The notes under the pieces were generated by a model, which worked only from the letters and a program-made list of their open reading frames with translations, searched no databases and had not been told where the DNA came from. A stretch of 64,000 nt of DNA from NCBI GenBank assembly GCA_009838975.1, contig VXQO01000162.1, positions 1 to 64,000 of the forward strand. The letters run 5' to 3'. The stretch is from Gemmatimonadota bacterium (GTDB taxonomy: Bacteria; Gemmatimonadota; Gemmatimonadetes; Longimicrobiales; Gaopeijiaceae). Below are positions 26,087 to 37,916 of this stretch, piece by piece; position 1 is the stretch's first letter; each line of letters begins with the position of its first letter. The position numbers and the translations under genes were made by a program.

Positions 26087-26857
26087 TCAGCAGACGATCG
26101 GGAGCAGGGGGCGTTGCCGCACCGCTGTGCCCTCCACGTAGGTGTTGGTGTACACGCGAATCTGTCCGCATCCCCGGATGACCTCCACGCGGTAGATCGC
26201 GGTCGTGGGCAGCGAAGCCAGCTCCTCCACGCCGCCGAAGGCCGGGGCGTCGTCGATGTAGATCCGGGGGCGCTGCGCCATCGTGCCACGGGTGCGAATG
26301 CAATTGAGGCGCTGGCCGAAGATGCTGGTCCCGGAGTTGTCCTCGAAGCACGGAACGAACTCGAACGCCGGCTGGCTGTGGAGGTATTCGGCGACGTTCA
26401 GGTCCGGCGCCGACTTCAGTTCAGGCTCACTCCATGTGTTGGTGACATACGGCAGTTCCCGCAGCCGGGTCTCCAGCCGGTCCACATAGACTTCGAGCCC
26501 CTCGAGCACCACGGGCTTGGGGATCAGTACGACTTCCGTGAACTGCCCGTCCCGGATGTCCAGCACCTGGTAGAGATCCGCGTAGCCGATGCGCGTGACC
26601 GAAACCTGACTCGGGCCGGGCGGTACACCCGCGATCCTGAACCGGCCATCGGCGCCGGTGATCCCGACGATCCTCGATCCGTCCGGGCGCAAGGTCTCGG
26701 TGAGCCGGACGACGGCACCCTCGACCGGCTCGCCCCAATACGTGTCGATCACCTGACCTGCGAAGGTTGCTGCGGCGCCCGCCTGGGCCCTGGCCTCCGC
26801 GGCCGGTAAGATCGCCGCCAGAATCGCGAACCAGGAGAAGAGGAGCCTGTACGACAC
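26087..26857 (-). CDS. Secreted carboxypeptidase-regulatory/plug-like domain protein, barrel-less
   Basis: 256 residues. A signal peptide ends near ARAQA. A carboxypeptidase-regulatory-like beta-sandwich follows (about 32-112; GQVIDTYWGEPVEGAVVRL). The second half resembles a TonB-receptor plug (PRIYIDDAPAFGG, AIYRVEVIRG) but the protein stops with no beta-barrel. Four Cys (two pairs) are in the C-terminal half. It follows the peroxiredoxin gene by 7 bases. A paralogue-like protein with the same architecture is at 27413-28444. Confidence 0.75.
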   Translation of the reverse strand: MSYRLLFSWFAILAAILPAAEARAQAGAAATFAGQVIDTYWGEPVEGAVVRLTETLRPDGSRIVGITGADGRFRIAGVPPGPSQVSVTRIGYADLYQVLDIRDGQFTEVVLIPKPVVLEGLEVYVDRLETRLRELPYVTNTWSEPELKSAPDLNVAEYLHSQPAFEFVPCFEDNSGTSIFGQRLNCIRTRGTMAQRPRIYIDDAPAFGGVEELASLPTTAIYRVEVIRGCGQIRVYTNTYVEGTAVRQRPLLPIVC

Positions 26858-26864
26858 GGCAGGA

Positions 26865-27347
26865 TCAGGCCAGGGACCGAACCGCCCCGACGACTTCGTC
26901 GAAGGGGGGGAGCACTCCCGGGTTGTCGCTCACCCAGGCGTACGCTATGCGGCCTTCGCCGTCCACCACGAAGACCGACCGCTTCGCAACGCCATGCAGT
27001 CCGAAGAAGTCCTCCTGAAGCACCCCGAACGCCCTGGCGGCTTCCTTGTTGAAATCCGACAGTATGGGGAACGGGACGTCCATTTCCTTGCGCCACTGCT
27101 GGTTCGAGAAGGGCGAGTCGATGCTGATCGCGTACACTCCGGCGCCGAGCCCGCCCCATTGATTCCAGTTCTCGCCGATGTGGCAGAGCTCCTCGGTGCA
27201 CGTGCCGCTGAAGGCGAGCGGTACGAACATCAGCACGACCGGCTGGCCGCGGTGCCCGGAGAGAGTTACGGGGTCCTTGCCGAATACGTCCAGCAGAGAG
27301 AAGTCCGGCGCTTCGTTTCCGACTTGAATGTGGCTCAAGGTAGTCAC
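26865..27347 (-). CDS. Peroxiredoxin (AhpE/thiol-specific antioxidant type)
   Basis: 160 residues with the thioredoxin-like AhpC/TSA fold. The peroxidatic Cys50 is in PLAFSGTCTEELC, with Cys55 five residues later and no C-terminal resolving Cys. Arg in VAKRSVFVVD fits the active-site Arg. No signal peptide, so cytoplasmic reduction of peroxides is expected. It lies between two secreted plug-domain proteins on the same strand (66 bases after one, 7 before the next). Confidence 0.93.
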   Translation of the reverse strand: MTTLSHIQVGNEAPDFSLLDVFGKDPVTLSGHRGQPVVLMFVPLAFSGTCTEELCHIGENWNQWGGLGAGVYAISIDSPFSNQQWRKEMDVPFPILSDFNKEAARAFGVLQEDFFGLHGVAKRSVFVVDGEGRIAYAWVSDNPGVLPPFDEVVGAVRSLA

Positions 27348-27412
27348 TCCCTCGATTGTGGTCTTCGCCGATTTTGGAATGGAAAACTAACACCCCGCGC
27401 GGCGGCGGGATC

Positions 27413-28444
27413 CTAGTTGCCGCGCGCCGCCTGCCTGGTCCAGATCAGAGCGGATCCACAGCCGCCGTTGTATCTGCCCCGGAACTCCGGAGGTGTTCGC
27501 GCACCCCAGTAGACCTCGGCCACCTCGACCCATTCCGGCGGGATGTGGTCGATATTGACCGTTCCTTCCATGTCCACGTTCCACTCGACTCCGTCGACGA
27601 AGATCGCGAGTTCGCAGTCCCGAACCTGCAGGAACGCCCGGTCCGTGGTTGGGCGGTTGATCCGGAGGCCCGGCAGTCGGGCGAACGCATCGGAGATGCG
27701 CGGGGACCCCTGCTCTTCGATCGTCCGTCGGGTAAGCAGCCGCATCACGATCCCGTCGTCCAGGCGGCGATAGTAGCCGCGGGCTTCCAGAAAGCGCGAG
27801 CGCACTTCGACAGTCAGGGGCCTCAGCGCGACCGCCTCGACGGTCATCGCCACCTCGACCACCGTCGTACGATCGGGGTGCAGTGCAATCGGTTCCTCAC
27901 GCGTTGCGTAACCGATGCGCTCGACCGTCAGGCGCGTGAGGTCGGACTCCAGGTCGGCGAACTCCACGCGTCCGCCGGCGTTCGTGAACGCCCGCCGCCC
28001 ATCGAGGACCGCGACCATCGCTCCCTCGACCGGCGCGCCGGAATCCGAATCCACGACCCTGACCAGAAGCCTCGCGGAAGTAGCGAGGGGGTTACCCGAT
28101 TCCCCCTTGCGCATCATCAGGTTGAAACTCCCCGGCCGCAGCACCCTGAATCCGCCCTGCAACGTGACGTAGCCGGACCTGCGGATCGTCAGGGTGTAGT
28201 TGCCGGTGGGCGCCGAGAAGGTCGCTCTCCCGTCCGCCCCCGTCACGTAGCGATGCACCAGGCCGGACAACTCGAGGACGGCACCCTCCAGGTCGGAGCC
28301 CGTATCCACGTCCTGGATGTGCCCGGTAATCGTCACGGAGTCCGCGCGCTGAGCCGCCAAATCGGGCGGGGCCCAGGGGCAGAAACCAGCCAGGACGGCT
28401 GCCGCTCCCAGCACCGCAATCGGTGATGACTTGTGGGCGTGCAT
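27413..28444 (-). CDS. Secreted protein with two carboxypeptidase-regulatory-like domains and a plug-like C-terminus
   Basis: 343 residues. After a signal peptide (cleavage near LAAQR) come two carboxypeptidase-regulatory-like domains (about 38-115, TITGHIQDVDTGSDLEGAVL; and 125-205, VRVVDSDSGAPVEGAMVAV). A plug-like region follows (ISDAFARLPGLRI, LAIFVDGVEWN, EWVEVAEVYWG), again without a beta-barrel. The layout matches the protein at 26087 with one extra sandwich domain. The two may be paralogues serving as surface or periplasmic binding modules; no function is known. Confidence 0.78.
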   Translation of the reverse strand: MHAHKSSPIAVLGAAAVLAGFCPWAPPDLAAQRADSVTITGHIQDVDTGSDLEGAVLELSGLVHRYVTGADGRATFSAPTGNYTLTIRRSGYVTLQGGFRVLRPGSFNLMMRKGESGNPLATSARLLVRVVDSDSGAPVEGAMVAVLDGRRAFTNAGGRVEFADLESDLTRLTVERIGYATREEPIALHPDRTTVVEVAMTVEAVALRPLTVEVRSRFLEARGYYRRLDDGIVMRLLTRRTIEEQGSPRISDAFARLPGLRINRPTTDRAFLQVRDCELAIFVDGVEWNVDMEGTVNIDHIPPEWVEVAEVYWGARTPPEFRGRYNGGCGSALIWTRQAARGN

Positions 28445-28582
28445 TGACTATAGTAATTGGATGTGTTCCGTGTTCCGTCACATTGTATGTTGCCGGGCAC
28501 GGCACGCAGGGACAAGGGTTGGAGCCGTTCCGCGTCCGTTCCGACTGGCCGAACGCCTACCCGCCACCATACCTTGGGAGCC

Positions 28583-31027
28583 ATGAACAGGTATTCACTT
28601 GCGCTGCTGGCTGCGGGCACCTTGGGTCTGGCCGTGGCCAATCCTGCCGGGGAGCAGCACTACGCCGGCGACGCGTCGACCGTTGTATCGCCGACATCTC
28701 TTGACCGCACGTTACCGAACGCGGAGGTCGCAAACGAGATCGTGGCGGAGTACTGCGTTCGCTGTCACAGTGAACGGCGGCAGGTGGGTGGTCTCGTGCT
28801 CGAGGGCTTCGACATCGCCGAGGCAGCCTCGCGCGGCCCGACCGTGGAGAAGATGATCCGGAAGCTGAGGGCGGGAATGATGCCGCCGCAGAGCGTCCGT
28901 CGCCCCGAGCCGGAGATGATCGCGGCAATGGCCACGGAGCTCGAGACCGCAATGGACGAGCTTGCGGCGAATGATCCGAACCCCGGCAAGCGCACGTTCC
29001 AGCGTCTCAACCGCGCCGAGTACGCACGCGCCGTCAGGGACCTGCTGGGCGTGGACATCGATGTGAGCTCCTTCCTGCCGCTCGACACCAAGAGCGCGAA
29101 TTTCGACAACATCGCCGATGTGCAGATGCCCTCTGCCACCGTCGTGGAGGGTTACCTGCGCGCGGCCGGACAGATCAGCCGGTCCGCGCTAGGCGACCCG
29201 GACGTCGAGACCTCTTCGACCATATACCGGATTCCCCGTGTAGCCTCCCAGAAGGATCGCGTGGAAGGCGCGCCCATCGGCACGAGGGGCGGACTGTCGG
29301 TCCTTCACAACTTCCCGGCCGACGGCACCTACGTCTTTCACATCATGCCCTACGCGGCCGTAGAGGGAGAGGTGTTCGGCCGGACGTTCGGAACCGAGCA
29401 GATCGAGGTCTCGATCGACGGAGCGAGGGTGGCGTTGCTGACGATCGACCGCTGGATGTCCGAGTCCGAGCCCACCGGCCTGAACATCCGGACCGATTCA
29501 ATCTACGTCACGGCGGGCCAGAAGAGGGTGTCGGTCGCGTTCATTCGGCAGTTCGAGGGCGTGGTGGACGACCTGATTCGGCCGATCGACCATACCCTCG
29601 CCGACGGGCAGATCGGGATCGGACTCGGAGTGACGACGCAACAGCACCTGCAGCGGCTTACCGTTCTGGGGCCTTTCGGCGTGACGGGTGTGTCGGATAC
29701 ACCAGCGCGCCAGGCGGTCTTCACCTGTCGGCCGACCTCGCCCGACGAGGAAGGGCCCTGCGCACGCGAAATCATTGCCAGGCTCGCCACCCGGGCCTAT
29801 CGCCGGCCCGCTGTCGACCGCGATGTCGACGGCCTGATGACCTTCTATGGGCAGGGCGCAGCCGACGGCGGTTTCGAAAAGGGCATCCGCACCGCGCTGC
29901 AGGCGATCCTGGCGAGCCCGCACTTCATCTTCCGACTCGAACAGCGGCCGTCCGAGGTCGGGGCCGACGACTTGTACGGGATCGACGACTTCGATCTCGC
30001 GTCGCGGCTTTCGTTCTTCCTGTGGGGCGCGCCCCCCGACGATGAACTCCTGGAAGCCGCCCGCGCCGGTTCGCTTTCCGATGCGGCCGAGCTGGACCGA
30101 CAGGCGCGGCGCATGCTCGCCGACCCCCGCTCCGAAGCGCTGGCCACGCGCTTCGCCGCGCAGTGGCTCCGACTCCAGGACATCGAGGACATCCACCCGG
30201 ACGCGTTGACCTTCCCGTATTTCGACCAGACCCTGGCCGACGCCATGGTGCGGGAAACGGAACTGTTCTTCTCCCATCTGGTGGAAGAGGACCGCCCGGT
30301 TCTGGATCTCCTTACGGCGGACTACACCTTCGTGAACGAGCGGCTGGCCCGACACTACGGGATGACCGGAGTTCTGGGCCCGGAGTTCGCCAGGGTCACC
30401 TATCCGACCGACCATCGCCGCGGCCTGCTCGGGCACGGGAGCGTGCTCACGCTTACCTCGCACCCCGACCGTACCTCACCGGTTCTGCGCGGAAAGTGGG
30501 TGCTCGAGGTCCTGCTGGGCGCTCCTCCGCCCCCGCCCCCGCCGGACATCCCCGCCTTCGAGGAAACCGCCGCGGCCGAAGAGGGACGTTTCTTCACGGT
30601 TCGGGAGCGCATGGAGGAGCACCGGGCGAACCCGCAGTGCAGTTCCTGCCACAACGTCATCGATCCGCTCGGGCTCGCGCTCGAAAACTTCGACGTGACA
30701 GGCGGCTGGCGGATCCGGGACGAGGGCAACCCGGTGGACCCCGTGGGCACGATGTACGACGGCACGGAACTGGCCGGCCCGACCGATCTGCGCACGGCGC
30801 TGATGGGCCTGTCCGATGTCGTCGTGAGCACCTTCGCCGAGAACCTGATGGCCTATGCGCTGGGCCGGCGGGTGGAGTACTACGACATGCCGACGATCCG
30901 GGCCATCGTCCGGGCGGCGGCGGAAGACGACTACCGCGTATCCAACTTCATCCTGGGCGTCGTGAACAGCATGCCGTTCCGCATGGCGCGCGCCGGCACG
31001 GTGGCCGAGGAAGAAGCCGAATTCTGA
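28583..31027 (+). CDS. Di-heme cytochrome-type DUF1587/1592/1588/1585/1595 protein
   Basis: 814 residues from ATG 28583, which begins a signal peptide (MNRYSLALLAAGTLGLAVA). An N-terminal planctomycete-type cytochrome c domain has C58-V-R-C61-H62 and the MMPP motif. Then come DUF1587 (RLNRAEYARAVRDLLG), the DUF1592 core (DLASRLSFFLWGAPPDDEL), DUF1588 (HRRGLLGHGSVLTLTSHPDRTSPVLRGKW, written in parts) and DUF1585 with a second heme site C686-S-S-C689-H690. Proteins of this type are exported and pair with DUF1552 proteins, as here; the reaction is unknown. The start has GGGAG only 2 bases upstream, so a different start remains possible. Confidence 0.9.
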   Translation: MNRYSLALLAAGTLGLAVANPAGEQHYAGDASTVVSPTSLDRTLPNAEVANEIVAEYCVRCHSERRQVGGLVLEGFDIAEAASRGPTVEKMIRKLRAGMMPPQSVRRPEPEMIAAMATELETAMDELAANDPNPGKRTFQRLNRAEYARAVRDLLGVDIDVSSFLPLDTKSANFDNIADVQMPSATVVEGYLRAAGQISRSALGDPDVETSSTIYRIPRVASQKDRVEGAPIGTRGGLSVLHNFPADGTYVFHIMPYAAVEGEVFGRTFGTEQIEVSIDGARVALLTIDRWMSESEPTGLNIRTDSIYVTAGQKRVSVAFIRQFEGVVDDLIRPIDHTLADGQIGIGLGVTTQQHLQRLTVLGPFGVTGVSDTPARQAVFTCRPTSPDEEGPCAREIIARLATRAYRRPAVDRDVDGLMTFYGQGAADGGFEKGIRTALQAILASPHFIFRLEQRPSEVGADDLYGIDDFDLASRLSFFLWGAPPDDELLEAARAGSLSDAAELDRQARRMLADPRSEALATRFAAQWLRLQDIEDIHPDALTFPYFDQTLADAMVRETELFFSHLVEEDRPVLDLLTADYTFVNERLARHYGMTGVLGPEFARVTYPTDHRRGLLGHGSVLTLTSHPDRTSPVLRGKWVLEVLLGAPPPPPPPDIPAFEETAAAEEGRFFTVRERMEEHRANPQCSSCHNVIDPLGLALENFDVTGGWRIRDEGNPVDPVGTMYDGTELAGPTDLRTALMGLSDVVVSTFAENLMAYALGRRVEYYDMPTIRAIVRAAAEDDYRVSNFILGVVNSMPFRMARAGTVAEEEAEF

Positions 31028-31069
31028 CGGAGCAGAGTTGCAACACACCCACGACCGAGGTCTGAACAG

Positions 31070-32458
31070 ATGCAATACCTGACTGGCAAGCACATTTCGC
31101 GGCGAGCAATGCTCAAGGGCGCCAGCGCCGCCATCGGCCTCCCCCTGCTGGACGCCATGATTCCGGCCGGGCGAGCGTGGGCGGCGACGGAGGCCGGAAG
31201 GGCGGCCGGCCGCACGAGGGTGGTTTGTATCGAGCAGGTGCATGGTGCGGCCGGTTGCAACGACTGGGGCCGGGCGCAGAACCTGTGGTCGCCGGCGGAA
31301 ACGGGCCGCGACTTCGACCTGACGCCCAGCAACCTCCGGCCGCTGGAACCGTTCAGGAAGTACCTGACGATCGTGAGCGACACCGACGCGCGGATGGCCG
31401 ACGCGTACGCGCCCGCCGAGATCGGTGGAGACCATTTCCGGACCAGCGCGGTCTTCCTCACCCAGGCCCATCCGAAGCAGACCGAGGGTTCCGACGTTCG
31501 CGTGGGAACTTCCTTCGACCAGCTGTACGTACAGCGTTTCGGCCAGGACACGCCCATCCCGTCGCTGCAGCTGTCCATCGAGAACGTCGACCAGGCCGGA
31601 GGGTGCGCGTACGGCTACGCGTGCGTTTATACGGACACGATCAGCTGGGCCTCGCCGAGCGACCCGCTTCCGATGATCCGTGATCCGCGAGCGGTCTTCG
31701 AGCAGTTGTTCGGGGCCGGTGGAACACCCGAGCAGCGCGCCGAGCGCCTCACTACCGACCGCAGCATCCTCGACTGGGTCATGGGCGAGATGTCGATGGT
31801 GCGTCGCAAGCTCGACCCGATCGATGTCCAACGCCTCGATCAGTACGCAAACAACATTCGCGAACTCGAACAGCGGATCCAGCGCATCGAGGCACAGAAC
31901 TCCAGCGGCGAGGAGCGGGCGATCCCGGAGGCTCCGGTGGGTGTTCCGGATTCGTTCGAAGAGCACGTGAAGCTGATGTTCGACCTTCAGGTCCTCGCCT
32001 TCCAATCCGACACGACGAGGGTCTTCTCCTTCAAGCTTGGGCGCGACGCGTCGCCCAGGGTCTACCCGGAGTCCGGAGTGGATTCGCCCTTCCATGCTTC
32101 ATCACACCACGGAGGCCGTGAAGATCGGGTGATCCAGTTCGGCAAGATCAACGAGTATCACGTGTCGATGGTGCCCTACTTCCTGGAGAAGCTGCAGGCG
32201 GTGACCGAGGGAGATGCCACACTTCTCGACAAGACGCTGCTCATGTACGGCTCGGCGATGGCCGACAGCAACCTCCACAATCACACGCGTTGCCCGCTCT
32301 TCCTGGCTGGCGGCGCGAACGGCATCCTGGAGGGCGAACAGCACATCCGGGCGCAACCCGGCACGCCGATGGCCAACGTGATGCTGAGCCTGCTGCACAA
32401 ACTTGGAGCCGACGACATCAAGAGTTTCGGGAACAGCACGGGCCGCTTCGCCATCTAG
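31070..32458 (+). CDS. Tat-exported DUF1552 (HXXSHH) protein
   Basis: 462 residues. The N-terminus has a twin-arginine signal (ISRRAMLKGASAAIGLPLLD). The family hallmark H342-A-S-S345-H346-H347 is intact. Tat export suggests folding or cofactor loading in the cytoplasm before secretion. It is the universal neighbour of DUF1592/1588 cytochromes, and the pair here is separated by 42 bases. A role as a redox or hydrolytic partner of the cytochrome is inferred only from context. Confidence 0.92.
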   Translation: MQYLTGKHISRRAMLKGASAAIGLPLLDAMIPAGRAWAATEAGRAAGRTRVVCIEQVHGAAGCNDWGRAQNLWSPAETGRDFDLTPSNLRPLEPFRKYLTIVSDTDARMADAYAPAEIGGDHFRTSAVFLTQAHPKQTEGSDVRVGTSFDQLYVQRFGQDTPIPSLQLSIENVDQAGGCAYGYACVYTDTISWASPSDPLPMIRDPRAVFEQLFGAGGTPEQRAERLTTDRSILDWVMGEMSMVRRKLDPIDVQRLDQYANNIRELEQRIQRIEAQNSSGEERAIPEAPVGVPDSFEEHVKLMFDLQVLAFQSDTTRVFSFKLGRDASPRVYPESGVDSPFHASSHHGGREDRVIQFGKINEYHVSMVPYFLEKLQAVTEGDATLLDKTLLMYGSAMADSNLHNHTRCPLFLAGGANGILEGEQHIRAQPGTPMANVMLSLLHKLGADDIKSFGNSTGRFAI

Positions 32459-32469
32459 GAGGTGCGACG

Positions 32470-34392
32470 ATGACCGGTGAAAGTATGAACACTGGCGGGT
32501 CTGACACGGTCGCGTCGAAACGCCCGCACGCGAAACGCACAGTCGGCGGGCTCCTGGCGCTGGCTTCACTGATTGCGACCATCGGCGCGGTGGTGCCCAC
32601 CGAGGCTCCGGTCGCCGACGCTGCCGAACGTGGTGATCTCGAGGCGGTGCGCGCGTTGCTGCGACAGGGTGCCGACGTCAACACGGCTCAGAACGACGGC
32701 ATGACGGCGCTTCACTGGGCCGCGAGCAACAACGACATCGCTATCGCGAAGGCGCTTCTCTATGCGGGAGCTACCTTCCGGGCGACGACGCGTATCGGGG
32801 GCTACACACCTCTGCACCTCGCGAGCAGGGGCGGCCACGCGGAAGTTGCGTGGCTCATTCTGGAGGACGGCGCCGATCCGGACAAACTCACCGGCACGGG
32901 CGTAACCGCAATGCACTTCGCTGCCGACGCCGATGCAGCCGAAGTGATCGAGGCACTGGCCGCGCATGGCGGTGACGTGGACGCACGGGACAGCTTTGCG
33001 GAGCGCACCCCTCTGATGTTCGCCGCCGTGCGGGGGGCAGACGCGGCGGTACGTGCCCTTCTGAACGCGGGGGCCGATGTATCTCTGGTGACCCGGGTGA
33101 AGGACTATGAGGTCATCGACCGGGACCTGCGCGCCGAGCAGCGCCAGCGCGCCCGCGTAAGGGCCGCGGCCGAGGAGCCCGAGGAGGAGGAAGAGGTCAG
33201 TGAGGCCTCAGCGTCGCCAATTCCGCCCCAGGGACAGCAAGCCCGCAACCCGGCCCAGGTCCCTCAGGCCCGACAACAGCCCGGCAATCCGGCACGGCCT
33301 GCGGCAGCCCCTGGCCAGGCCGAGCCGGACGAACCCTCCACACCTCCGGAAGAACCGCCGGTAAGAGCGTTGAGTTCGGCGCAGCAGATCGGCAGGCAGG
33401 GCGGTTTCGGCGCGCTGCACTACGCCGCTCGCGAGGGCCACCGCTCCACTGCGACGCTGCTTCTCGACGCCGGCGCTGACGTCAACCATCCAACCGGCGG
33501 CGATCAGTCCTCTCCCATGCTGGTGGCGGTCATCAACGGCAACTACGACCTCGGGCGCGACCTGCTGGAGCGCGGCGCGGATCCCAACCTCGTCAGCGAC
33601 GACGGCGCGGCACCGCTTTTCGCCACGCTGAACATCGAGTGGTCGCTGCGCACCTGGTATCCCCAGCCACAGGCCTTCCGCCAGCAGGAGACCGACTACC
33701 TGGAGTTAATGCGGCTCCTGCTCGACGCGGGCGCGGACCCCAATCAGCAGACGACCACACATATCTGGTATGCAGCCTACAACGCCGGCCGCATGGGTGT
33801 GGACTTCACGGGCGCCACCCCCTTCTGGCGGGCCGCATACGCCACGGACGTGGAAGCAATGCGCCTTCTGGTCGACTACGGAGCCGACCCCAACATCTGG
33901 ACCACGAAGCTCCCCAGCCGGCGCCGCTTCTTCGATCCGAACTTCCCCGACACCCGACCCGAGGCGACCGAACTGGATCCGTCCGGGCTTCCGCCGGTTC
34001 CCGTCGGCGGCCCCGCGGTGCACCCGCTCCACGCGGCCTCCGGCGTCGGCTTCGGCACCTCGAGGGTGGCACAGCAGCATCGGAGCGTCCCCGACGGATG
34101 GCTTCCGGCGGTGCGTTACCTGATCGACGAACTCGGCGTCGACCCCAACCTGCGCGACCACGACGGCTTCAACGCCATCCACCACTCCGCGGCCCGGGGC
34201 GACAACGAGACCATTCTCTTCCTGGTCAGCCGCGGTACGGACATCCATGCCATCAGCCGGCGCGGGCAGACCACTGCAGACCTCGCCAACAGTCCGGAGC
34301 AGCGCGCACAGCCGCACCCGGCCACGGTCGCACTGCTCGAGAAGCTCGGTTCCCACAACAACCACCAGTGTCGTTCCTGCGGAGGCAACTGA
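32470..34392 (+). CDS. Exported ankyrin-repeat protein
   Basis: 640 residues from ATG 32470, which has AGGAGGTG 6 bases upstream; it begins 11 bases after the DUF1552 stop. One hydrophobic segment (about 22-45) suggests export or membrane anchoring. Ankyrin repeats fill residues 50-205 (ALHWAASNNDIAIAKALL; HLASRGGHAEVAWLILEDG), then comes a disordered Glu/Gln/Pro-rich linker (235-300), then further repeats to the end, finishing in CRSCGGN. Ankyrin repeats bind proteins, so it may be a scaffold for its two neighbours. Its presence beside DUF1592/DUF1552 genes is a recurrent arrangement. Confidence 0.9.
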   Translation: MTGESMNTGGSDTVASKRPHAKRTVGGLLALASLIATIGAVVPTEAPVADAAERGDLEAVRALLRQGADVNTAQNDGMTALHWAASNNDIAIAKALLYAGATFRATTRIGGYTPLHLASRGGHAEVAWLILEDGADPDKLTGTGVTAMHFAADADAAEVIEALAAHGGDVDARDSFAERTPLMFAAVRGADAAVRALLNAGADVSLVTRVKDYEVIDRDLRAEQRQRARVRAAAEEPEEEEEVSEASASPIPPQGQQARNPAQVPQARQQPGNPARPAAAPGQAEPDEPSTPPEEPPVRALSSAQQIGRQGGFGALHYAAREGHRSTATLLLDAGADVNHPTGGDQSSPMLVAVINGNYDLGRDLLERGADPNLVSDDGAAPLFATLNIEWSLRTWYPQPQAFRQQETDYLELMRLLLDAGADPNQQTTTHIWYAAYNAGRMGVDFTGATPFWRAAYATDVEAMRLLVDYGADPNIWTTKLPSRRRFFDPNFPDTRPEATELDPSGLPPVPVGGPAVHPLHAASGVGFGTSRVAQQHRSVPDGWLPAVRYLIDELGVDPNLRDHDGFNAIHHSAARGDNETILFLVSRGTDIHAISRRGQTTADLANSPEQRAQPHPATVALLEKLGSHNNHQCRSCGGN

Positions 34393-34952
34393 TGTCCGGA
34401 AGCTCTTCGGACGGGCCGACCCCGGCGCGGCGCGGCGCGGTCCTGCTGGCCGCTGCCGCCACCGCGTCGATCACACTTCCCTCACCCGCCGCCGCCCAGA
34501 ACACCGAGTGGAACCGGTACACCCTCGAGGACCTGGTCGGTGTCTACGTGCGCGCCGAGACCAATCAGGGATGCGAAGGCGCGGGGCTCTCGGCCGAGTC
34601 CGTCCGCACCGACGCGGAGTCCGCGCTGGGGGAGGCGGAGGTGCCCCTTCTGACCGAGCGCGAGATGCTCGAGAGCCCGGGACTTCCCGAGTTGAGGGTC
34701 ACGCTGGAGTGCGGCGGCGGAGTCGCCGGCGTGGTGGGCTACTCGGTTTCCGTCCGCATGCAACAGGCCACGCAGATGATCCGGGACAACCAGATCACAC
34801 TGTCAGAGGCCGTCACATGGTGGACGACCGGCGTCGGGGTGGCCCAGGCGGGGACGGTTTCCGATGCGCTGGACGCCGAACTGCGTGCCAGGCTCACCGT
34901 CTTCGCGGAAGCCTTCGCGGCGGCGAATGCGGAGGAGGAGGGATCGGGGTAG
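34392..34952 (+). CDS. Small secreted protein of unknown function, last gene of cytochrome/DUF1552 operon
   Basis: 186 residues. ATG 34392 shares one base with the ankyrin gene's stop (TGATG), so it is translationally coupled. An N-terminal signal (ARRGAVLLAAAATASI...AAAQ) is followed by a soluble domain with two Cys (NQGCEGAG, LECGGG). The LTEREMLESPGLPELRVTLEC segment looks like a mixed alpha/beta domain. I do not recognise the family. It stops 3 bases before the convergent SulP gene. Confidence 0.75.
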   Translation: MSGSSSDGPTPARRGAVLLAAAATASITLPSPAAAQNTEWNRYTLEDLVGVYVRAETNQGCEGAGLSAESVRTDAESALGEAEVPLLTEREMLESPGLPELRVTLECGGGVAGVVGYSVSVRMQQATQMIRDNQITLSEAVTWWTTGVGVAQAGTVSDALDAELRARLTVFAEAFAAANAEEEGSG

Positions 34953-34955
34953 CGC

Positions 34956-36587
34956 CTACGACGCGAGCAGGTTGATCGCGACGTTTCGTGCCTGGTCCAG
35001 TGTATCCACGACGTGGTGGTCCGGAACGCTCCGCAGGATGTCCAGGGAGCGCAGGGTCTCGGCCACGGAGCCCGTCAGCCCCATGACAATGACTTCGGTG
35101 CGGCTCGTTTGGGCAACCTCGAAGAGCTGCGCAATCAACATCGCCGCGCTGTCATCCAGAAACGTGGCGCCAGAGAAGTCGAAGATTACGATTTCGTGTT
35201 CACTGATGTCACCACCGATCACCCCGACGAGCTTGTGGGCGGACGCCACCGTGAAGCTGCCCTTCAATGCCACCAGTCCCGTCCGGGCCGCATATTCGTC
35301 CTCGAACGCCAGCATTTCGGGGTTTTCCGCGAAGAAGGCCCGGTCCAGTAGCGGCACCGAGATCACGCTGTCCAGTTCCAGCACCTCCATCTCCTGGGCA
35401 TGAGCCATTGCGGCGACGATCAGTCCGATCGCCACCGCCGTGACGAGATCGACAAAGACGGTGAGGCCCAGCGTGACCAGCATGACAACGAGATGGGCAC
35501 GGCGTATTCGATGAATCCGGGTCAGCAGCCGCCAGTCGATGATGTCCCAGCCGACCTTCATCAGGATCCCGGCCAGAACAGCGTGAGGGATAGGCTCGAC
35601 GTACGGGCCCAGCCCGAGGAGCAATCCCAGCACGATCACCGCGCGTAGCACGCCGGACACCCGGGTTGTCCCGCCCGCACGGATGTTGGTCACCGTGCCC
35701 ATGGTAGCGCCGGCCCCGGGCAAGCCGCCGAAGACTCCGGAAACCACATTGCCGATTCCCTGCCCCACCAGTTCCCTGTTGGGATCGTGCCGCTGGCCGG
35801 TCAGGGAGTCGGCCACGAGAGAGGTGAGCAGGCTGTCCACCGAACCGAGCAGAGCCAGTACGAGTGCCGGCTGAGCGGCACCGAGGAGAAAACCCGCCGA
35901 GGGCAGCGTGACCTGCATGTCGGGCAGACCCCTGGGTATCTCTCCGATAGCGGGGACCCCGGTCAGCCAGAGGACGCCCATGAGCGTCCCCGTCACCAGG
36001 GCCACGAGAGCCGGCGGAGCATATCTGGAAAAGCGACGGGGCCAGAGGACCGCGATCAGGAGGGTCACCGTCGCGATGGCCAGCGCCTGGTAGTTGACCG
36101 AATGGACCGCCACGGCAAGGGCATCGATCGCACCCCGGGCTCCGCCGGAAGGTGCGGGCGCGCCGATGAACGGCAGTGACTGGATCAGCATGATGATGAC
36201 GCCGATCCCGGACATGAACCCCGACACTACCACGTGCGGTGTGTAGACCACGAAGCGCCCGATCCTCAGCAGGCCGAGGGCCACCTGCAGCAGGCCTGCG
36301 AGTACGACGATCGCGAACGCCTCGCCGAGGGTGGAGGCATGTGTGGTCACGATCACCGCCATGGCAACGGTCATCGGCGCGGTCGGCCCCGAGATCTGGG
36401 ATCGGGTGCCGCCGAACACCGAAGCGAAGAACCCCACCGCAATGACGCTGTAGAGTCCCGTGGCCGGGCCGAGGCCCGAGGCAATTCCGAAGGCAAGCGC
36501 CACCGGGAGCGCAACTACGGCCGAGGTAAGGCCGCCGAATATGTCACCGCGGAGGGCACCCGCGTCGTAGCCGCGCCCGGGAATCAT
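34956..36587 (-). CDS. SulP family anion transporter with STAS domain
   Basis: 543 residues. The SulP signature appears early (GLTSAVVALPVALAFGIASG, LGPATGLYSV) with about 12 membrane segments, and a STAS domain occupies roughly 440-540 (LVALKGSFTVAS, IVIFDFSGATFLDDSAAMLI). The Ser/Asp site used for STAS regulation is in the segment around DDSA. Substrates in the family include sulfate, bicarbonate and other anions; a choice is not possible here. ATG 36587 is preferred because the upstream extension overlaps the serine hydrolase gene and is Arg-rich. Confidence 0.93.
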   Translation of the reverse strand: MIPGRGYDAGALRGDIFGGLTSAVVALPVALAFGIASGLGPATGLYSVIAVGFFASVFGGTRSQISGPTAPMTVAMAVIVTTHASTLGEAFAIVVLAGLLQVALGLLRIGRFVVYTPHVVVSGFMSGIGVIIMLIQSLPFIGAPAPSGGARGAIDALAVAVHSVNYQALAIATVTLLIAVLWPRRFSRYAPPALVALVTGTLMGVLWLTGVPAIGEIPRGLPDMQVTLPSAGFLLGAAQPALVLALLGSVDSLLTSLVADSLTGQRHDPNRELVGQGIGNVVSGVFGGLPGAGATMGTVTNIRAGGTTRVSGVLRAVIVLGLLLGLGPYVEPIPHAVLAGILMKVGWDIIDWRLLTRIHRIRRAHLVVMLVTLGLTVFVDLVTAVAIGLIVAAMAHAQEMEVLELDSVISVPLLDRAFFAENPEMLAFEDEYAARTGLVALKGSFTVASAHKLVGVIGGDISEHEIVIFDFSGATFLDDSAAMLIAQLFEVAQTSRTEVIVMGLTGSVAETLRSLDILRSVPDHHVVDTLDQARNVAINLLAS

Positions 36588-36612
36588 GCCACCGGCTCTC
36601 CGAGGCACGACG

Positions 36613-37916
36613 TCACGACGGCCCAACCGCCGGCAGGATTCGCTCCTGGAGCGCCGTCCAGCTCGACATCTCCGCACGCTGGTGCAGCGTCCACCCGTTG
36701 AAGACCGAGATCAGGTCGTGTTCGGGGACGACGTGCAGGAACTGGCCGCCGTAGCCGTTGCCGGCAAACACCCGCGTCTCGCCGCCCTCTTGCACCGGCA
36801 CCCACCACTGGTACCCGTATCCGCTGTCGGGACGGTCGTTGTCCGGGGCCACGTCCGGGACGACGGGCGATGTCGACACCCGCACCCACTCGCGCGACAC
36901 GATCTGCCGGCCGTCCCACTCGCCGCCGTGCAGCATCAGATAGCCGATCCGCGCCAGGTCGTGGGTGGACAGGTAGAGACCGCCCTCCGAGTCGGCCTCG
37001 CCCCCCGGGGTGATCTTCCAATAGTACTCGTCGATCCCGATCGGACCGAACAGCCGCTCCTCGGCCCAGGCGTCCAGCCGCTGCCCCGTGGCCTCGCGAA
37101 CCACCTTGCCGAGCAGCACACTCACGCCGTCGTTGTAGTCGAAGCGCTCGCCGGGATCGGTCCCGATCGGCTGTTCCACCACATACTCGATCCAGGCGTC
37201 GCTCCCCTCCAGGATCGCGGTCGGGTGGGTTTCGTCGGTGTAGGGCTGCCCCGGACGCGCCCAGTCCATCCCGCTCCGCATGGTGAGGAAGTCCTCGATC
37301 GTGGTCGCCGCGCGCCGGGGATCCGCGAGATCGACGCCGTAGTCGGCAAACCAGGGCCACGCCGCGTCATCCACCCCGGAGATATGGCCCGCATCGACAG
37401 CGACCCCAAAGGCCACGGACATCACGCTCTTGGTCACGGACTGCAGCGAGTGCAGATCGGTGTCCCGGTAGTACGGGTGCCAGTCGGGGTGGTCGTAGTT
37501 GTATTGGTGCAGGACCGTGTCCGGTTGTTGGGTGAGGAGCTCGGCGTATCTCTCGCCGTGATCCCATCGGTGATCGGCAATGACGTATCCGTTGCGGATG
37601 AGGAGGAATTGGTCGATGAGGCCGTAGCGGCCCGCATCGATGTCGCGTACCAGCGCCTCGATCGCGGCGGCGTCCACGCCCTCGGCCTCGGGCGTGGAGA
37701 CGGGCCATTCTGCTCCCGGCCACACTGCGCCGGCATCGCCCTGCGGCGCCGACGATCCGCCCGGGCCCGAGCACGCCCCGGCGAGGAGCAGCACCCACGC
37801 AACGGCGTTTCCGCGCCACTTCGGCCCCGGTCTCGCGGTCAAATCGCCTGCGATCCCGCCACGGCGGGCTTCAAGCGGCGTGTCGGTGCCGGCGGTTCCG
37901 GGAGAAGTCGTTTCGT

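Follow-up and report, generated by a model that had tools for sequence, protein, structure and literature searches.

A DUF1592-DUF1552-ankyrin triad and a lineage-specific fourth secreted protein in a Gemmatimonadota gene cassette

The DNA analysed here is a stretch of 64,000 nucleotides, referred to as the window, from a Gemmatimonadota bacterium of the Gaopeijiaceae (contig VXQO01000162.1, positions 1-64,000), in which a four-gene locus at 28583-34952 was followed up. The core of this system is a widespread DUF1592-DUF1552-ankyrin triad in which the ankyrin protein is a general third component, and the fourth gene is a dedicated yet lineage-specific part, belonging to a single orthologous cassette within one family of bacteria. 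We read the locus most readily as encoding an exported redox enzyme directed at carbohydrate, which the ankyrin protein partners or helps to assemble and to which the fourth protein is a lineage-specific accessory. We give a probability of roughly 0.4 to the locus being a single operon that encodes a redox enzyme module acting outside the cytoplasm, with genes 1-4 in the roles proposed below.

Some groups of uncultured bacteria are rich in DUF1592/DUF1552 pairs, for which, as the original prediction held and as stays true, no reaction is known, the one biochemical precedent being Cbp2D (PMC8981238). With a fixed third partner whose CxxC tail is nearly invariant, a predicted fold for DUF1552 and, in DUF1592, a CBM-like domain, specific experiments become possible; these findings also suggest that work on single proteins or single domains may miss the working unit.

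Table 1. Features of the four-gene locus, in window coordinates
Feature	Position	Strand	Description and basis
Possible sigma-70-type promoter, ATGACT-17-TATAGT	28426..28454	+	Weak: 1 found vs 0.7 expected by chance
Gene 1	28583..31027	+	814 aa; exported di-heme c-type DUF1592-family protein (two CxxCH; heme predicted)
Heme site 1 of gene 1, CVRCH, residues 58-62	28754..28768	+	Predicted; invariant in 65-row alignment
CBM6/35/36-like beta-sandwich of gene 1, residues 206-369	29198..29689	+	AlphaFold2 model; VIA-align
Heme site 2 of gene 1, CSSCH, residues 686-690	30638..30652	+	Predicted; invariant in 65-row alignment
Gene 2	31070..32458	+	462 aa; Tat-exported DUF1552/HXXSHH protein; Pfam, AlphaFold2, Foldseek, VIA-align
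Twin-arginine pair R11 R12 of the Tat signal of gene 2	31100..31105	+	Invariant in alignment
HXXSHH motif of gene 2, H342-A-S-S345-H346-H347	32093..32110	+	H/S/H/H invariant
Gene 3	32470..34392	+	640 aa; exported ankyrin-repeat protein; Pfam and triad conservation
C-terminal CxxC tail of gene 3, C634-R-S-C637	34369..34380	+	Both Cys 100% in 78-row alignment
GGAGG, likely ribosome-binding site of gene 4	34381..34385	+	Within the 3' end of gene 3
Gene 4	34392..34952	+	186 aa; secreted; no Pfam/NCBIfam family

Arrangement of the locus

The locus had been described as four co-directional genes spaced by at most 42 bases, with the last two overlapping, and this was borne out: the gaps are 42 bases between genes 1 and 2 and 11 bases between genes 2 and 3, while genes 3 and 4 share one base (TGATG). 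A GGAGGTG element precedes the ATG of gene 3 at 32470. Because both neighbours (27413-28444 and 34956-36677) lie on the minus strand, the transcription unit comprises exactly genes 1-4. In each of the four proteins, the most hydrophobic 14-residue segment lies at the N-terminus, which bears out, at the level of sequence, the proposal that all four products are exported.

The convergent gene at 34956-36677 encodes a SulP-type anion transporter with a STAS domain, and about half of 20 relatives retain a SulP-type gene next to the cassette. Upstream, on the minus strand (26087-28444), lie two small exported proteins that combine CarboxypepD_reg and TonB-plug domains and have no barrel; arrays of such proteins occur in several relatives (loci L046, L048 and L049).

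A recurrent triad with an ankyrin protein

The host genome carries seven DUF1592 and seven DUF1552 genes, which are paired, and an ankyrin gene adjoins six of the seven pairs. The original prediction needs correcting in that the locus, though real, is one of seven such pairs. Across 101 DUF1552 genes in 80 loci, most of them labelled Gemmatimonadota or Acidobacteriota and some Gammaproteobacteria MAGs, the gene upstream of DUF1552 is DUF1592 in 89 of 94 testable cases, and the one downstream encodes an ankyrin protein in 90 of 96. These figures cover one DUF1552 branch rather than all of them, since the loci were picked for their closeness to gene 2. Another DUF1592 gene follows 14 of the complete triads.

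Tandem triad arrays were seen at L063, L065, L066, L117, L126 and, with two triads of the host genome, L210, and doubled DUF1592-DUF1552 pairs stand ahead of a single ankyrin gene at L094, L102 and L126. Two loci labelled Gammaproteobacteria and Euryarchaeota (L059 and L067) have DUF1552 genes that group among Gemmatimonadota sequences, that of L059 falling next to the sequence of L052, from the same family, at near-zero distance; judged by this placement, both are likely mis-binned or mislabelled MAGs.

Gene 3 has 10 Pfam ankyrin matches, arranged in two blocks parted by a Pro-rich linker; the ankyrin effector names offered by NCBIfam were rejected as repeat cross-matches far below the cut-off. 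The C-terminus of the triad ankyrin proteins is near-invariant (LLExLGxxNNHxCxSC), and its CxxC is found in 82 of 84 complete triad ankyrin proteins. Of the six in the host genome, that of L214 lacks the tail. In the cassette that contains gene 4, GGN comes after the tail, and the codons for these residues share bases with the gene 4 ribosome-binding site. The ankyrin protein had been proposed as a scaffold; because the C-terminal CxxC is nearly invariant, it is probably more than that.

Another account would have the ankyrin protein serve the cytochrome in heme trafficking or maturation, similar to AnkB/Cj1386, while standing outside the working complex and using its CxxC in thiol redox or heme handover. 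Both the position of the ankyrin gene beside a heme protein (90/96) and the conserved tail (82/84) would fit this account, and in P. aeruginosa and C. jejuni catalase activity is reported to depend on ankyrin proteins, which probably allow heme to bind (PMC7567364). We nevertheless regard it as unlikely, if a serious contender: the tail has nothing to match the His of CxxCH, the cases on record concern catalases, with b-type heme, whereas here the heme is of the c type, which has its own maturation system, and among the six DUF1552 genes that no ankyrin gene directly follows, some belong to doubled pairs ahead of one ankyrin gene, which makes dosage hard to judge.

Predicted structures of the paired proteins

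Gene 1 follows the domain order cytochrome, PSD3, CBM-like, PSD5, PSD4, PSCyt3 and PSD2, with Pfam scores all well over cut-off for PSD3 (72.6 bits), PSD5 (77.5), PSD4 (DUF1592; 166.1), PSCyt3 (123.1) and PSD2 (78.8), while the N-terminal cytochrome matches fall below cut-off yet contain a CxxCH. The two CxxCH sites and the Tat substrate had been taken to suggest an extracytoplasmic redox enzyme; an exported redox locus is supported, and both heme-c motifs are invariant in the alignment. Met100 and His680 are likewise invariant across the 65 rows, and Met100 is likely the axial ligand at heme site 1. The AlphaFold2 model (65 sequences, pLDDT 85, pTM 0.85) predicts that gene 1 bears a carbohydrate-binding-module-like insert, which aligns with the CBM36 of XynJ over 104 residues (Z 9.7, rmsd 2.4; VIA-align); when the whole model was searched, almost all matches listed concerned this CBM-like domain.

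Gene 2 belongs to Pfam PF07586 (HXXSHH/DUF1552; 283.7 bits against a cut-off of 30). Its alignment contains a set of invariant residues, E55, H58, D121, H122, H299, H342, H346, H347, H405 and H425, whose His, Asp and Glu side chains suggest a putative metal site. The AlphaFold2 model (75 sequences, pLDDT 80, pTM 0.83) predicts an alkaline-phosphatase/sulfatase superfamily fold: all 50 matches listed belong to the alkaline-phosphatase superfamily (Z 14.6-15.7), the best being 6bia (Z 15.7, rmsd 4.1, 267 aligned residues), with NPP3 at Z 15.5 (both VIA-align) and a best Foldseek E of 1.3e-05. Since gene 2 is Tat-exported, it is probably exported folded. A PDB sequence search with genes 1, 2 and 4 returned nothing credible.

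The sulfatase signatures CxPSR and SDNG are absent from the sequence of gene 2, while the host genome's own two sulfatases display CCPSR/CSSSR. A type I sulfatase was ruled out, as the C-x-P-S-R formylglycine site and SDNG are missing. Profile comparison of DUF1552 with DUF1501 or sulfatases gave no match, the alignments being shallow and some of their rows read stop to stop. With the sulfatase motifs missing and the profiles unconnected, superfamily membership is thus argued from the fold alone, and catalysis may differ or be lost.

The latter possibility, taken further, would have the DUF1552 protein, for all its phosphatase-like fold, act as a Tat-exported chaperone or shell without catalytic activity, leaving gene 1 alone as the enzyme. 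The missing sulfatase nucleophile and SDNG motifs, together with the lack of a profile match to active sulfatases, speak for this arrangement, but the many invariant His, Asp and Glu residues resemble a retained metal site, and we consider it rather improbable.

A fourth protein tied to one cassette

Gene 4 has no match among curated Pfam or NCBIfam models and no PDB relative, and it is present as a single copy in the host genome. Among 58 relatives, it was found in 24, comprising 19 of 22 in the genus and five of 12 in the rest of the family, with none of 24 elsewhere in the order; a wider sample placed it in 58 genomes of the host family. It lies directly after the cassette ankyrin gene in all 37 family loci inspected, where the order of genes 1-4 is fixed while flanking genes of the AhpC, SulP and TonB-plug types vary. 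The conservation of gene 4 beside a DUF1592/DUF1552 locus, set in advance as a check, is therefore found within the cassette of the host family. As had been noted, the protein has two Cys; C61 and C107 are invariant in 46 of 46 sequences and probably form a disulfide.

With a median dN/dS of 0.15 against 0.08-0.12 for genes 1-3, gene 4 is the fastest evolving of the four, and this ratio indicates that it is under purifying selection. The dN/dS value and its conservation in the 58 family genomes rule out a spurious open reading frame.

The DUF1552 tree places every cassette with gene 4 in one clade with support of 100 (20 of 20 and then 37 of 37 sequences). A sister lineage (L062 and L091) has triads without gene 4, the sequence of L091 covering only about 0.7 kb past the ankyrin gene. 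In 20 family genomes without gene 4, no strong DUF1552 match falls in the gene-4 clade, so gain and loss involve the cassette as a unit. The single clade, the sister triads without gene 4 and the 20 genomes without both together show that gene 4 was gained once and then inherited with the cassette.

A role as a general part of DUF1592/DUF1552 systems was ruled out, since gene 4 is absent from the six other loci of the host genome and from more than 70 elsewhere (L062-L132). The proposal of an overlooked dedicated component accordingly holds for the cassette of one family and fails for DUF1592/DUF1552 systems in general. In this sense, gene 4 provides a natural tag, a dedicated accessory marking one orthologous copy among seven paralogues.

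Remote relatives occur in three genomes of other families (L172, L173 and L174) with no DUF1592/DUF1552 alongside. One of them, at L172:5339-6181, lies away from DUF1592/DUF1552, which suggests a wider family of small secreted proteins as the source from which gene 4 was recruited.

These distant relatives, as well as the fast evolution of gene 4, could instead be taken to mean that it is a passenger hitchhiking with the cassette. Such a passenger would have to show a one-base translational overlap with gene 3, linkage in 37 of 37 loci while other neighbours come and go, purifying selection, and a single gain followed by retention, and we find this quite improbable.

Proposed function

Gene order and co-inheritance show that genes 1-4 are a functional unit, whereas a physical complex is inferred from gene order only. 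In the mechanism we favour, that of an exported carbohydrate-directed redox enzyme, the products of genes 1 and 2 would together make up the active enzyme, its substrate being of a carbohydrate type. A metal would be bound in the DUF1552 pocket, with its invariant His, Asp and Glu residues, and this pocket would position or hydrolyse an ester or acid group, while the DUF1592 helical core would perform the redox chemistry, its electrons leaving by way of heme 2 and then heme 1 for a respiratory acceptor. Docking of the products of genes 1 and 2 would fall to the ankyrin protein, whose CxxC tail might keep heme-attachment or catalytic cysteines reduced, or deliver heme or metal. Gene 4 would then be a small, disulfide-stabilised accessory that tunes the complex in the host family through substrate capture, stability or localisation.

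A bolder version, which we advance as speculative and consider unlikely as a whole, is that DUF1592-DUF1552-Ank is a so far undescribed extracytoplasmic oxidoreductase of three subunits, that the ankyrin protein is an obligate one whose C-terminal CxxC takes part in redox or metal chemistry beside the hemes, and that individual lineages add small secreted subunits of the gene 4 kind to retarget it.

Comparison with known systems

Few open-licence papers deal with DUF1592/DUF1552, and what was read of them describes neither the ankyrin triad and its CxxC tail nor gene 4, which is weak evidence of novelty.

Among characterised proteins, the two-cytochrome DUF1587 protein Cbp2D of Cellvibrio japonicus has been tied to the use of polysaccharides; in vitro, LPMOs are reduced by its X183 heme domain, and a cbp2D/cbp2E knockout grows poorly on cellulose (PMC8981238). 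Likened by description, Cbp2D and gene 1 are both exported and share DUF1587 (PSD3), two single CxxCH sites and a carbohydrate-binding module, whereas Cbp2D differs in its YceI/X158 domain, its FN3 and its link to LPMOs (PMC8981238). No AA10 LPMO was found in the host genome, which is 96% complete; a role as LPMO electron donor there was therefore ruled out, and the biochemical precedent does not transfer directly.

Gene 2 shares its predicted fold with the alkaline phosphatase/sulfatase superfamily (Z about 15) at about 10% identity, but CxPSR and SDNG are absent. In the DUF1800-DUF1501 pairs, which occur in tandem in one species (PMC5122149), a Tat-exported DUF protein (DUF1501) is likewise joined by a second DUF protein, and the reaction is not known; the Pfam families nevertheless differ from DUF1592/DUF1552, and the DUF1552 and DUF1501 profiles do not match.

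The AnkB/Cj1386 systems resemble gene 3 in placing an ankyrin gene beside that of a heme protein, and AnkB is periplasmic, although the partner there is a catalase and, in the part of the source consulted, no C-terminal CxxC is reported, unlike gene 3 (PMC7567364). The eight genes scanned at the operon and on its flanks include no catalase, the neighbour of gene 3 being DUF1552.

The closest counterparts in domain content are the DUF1592/PSCyt3-DUF1552 pairs of Planctomycetes and Verrucomicrobia, which have the same Pfam domains as the pair studied here and likewise no known function (PMC5615132, PMC2754498). PSCyt3 genes are reported usually to adjoin one unknown gene family, and Verrucomicrobia PSCyt genes carry CBMs and adjoin sulfatases (PMC5615132). 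The portions of these sources consulted mention no ankyrin partner for these pairs, whereas the pair described here is accompanied by an ankyrin protein with a CxxC tail and by gene 4.
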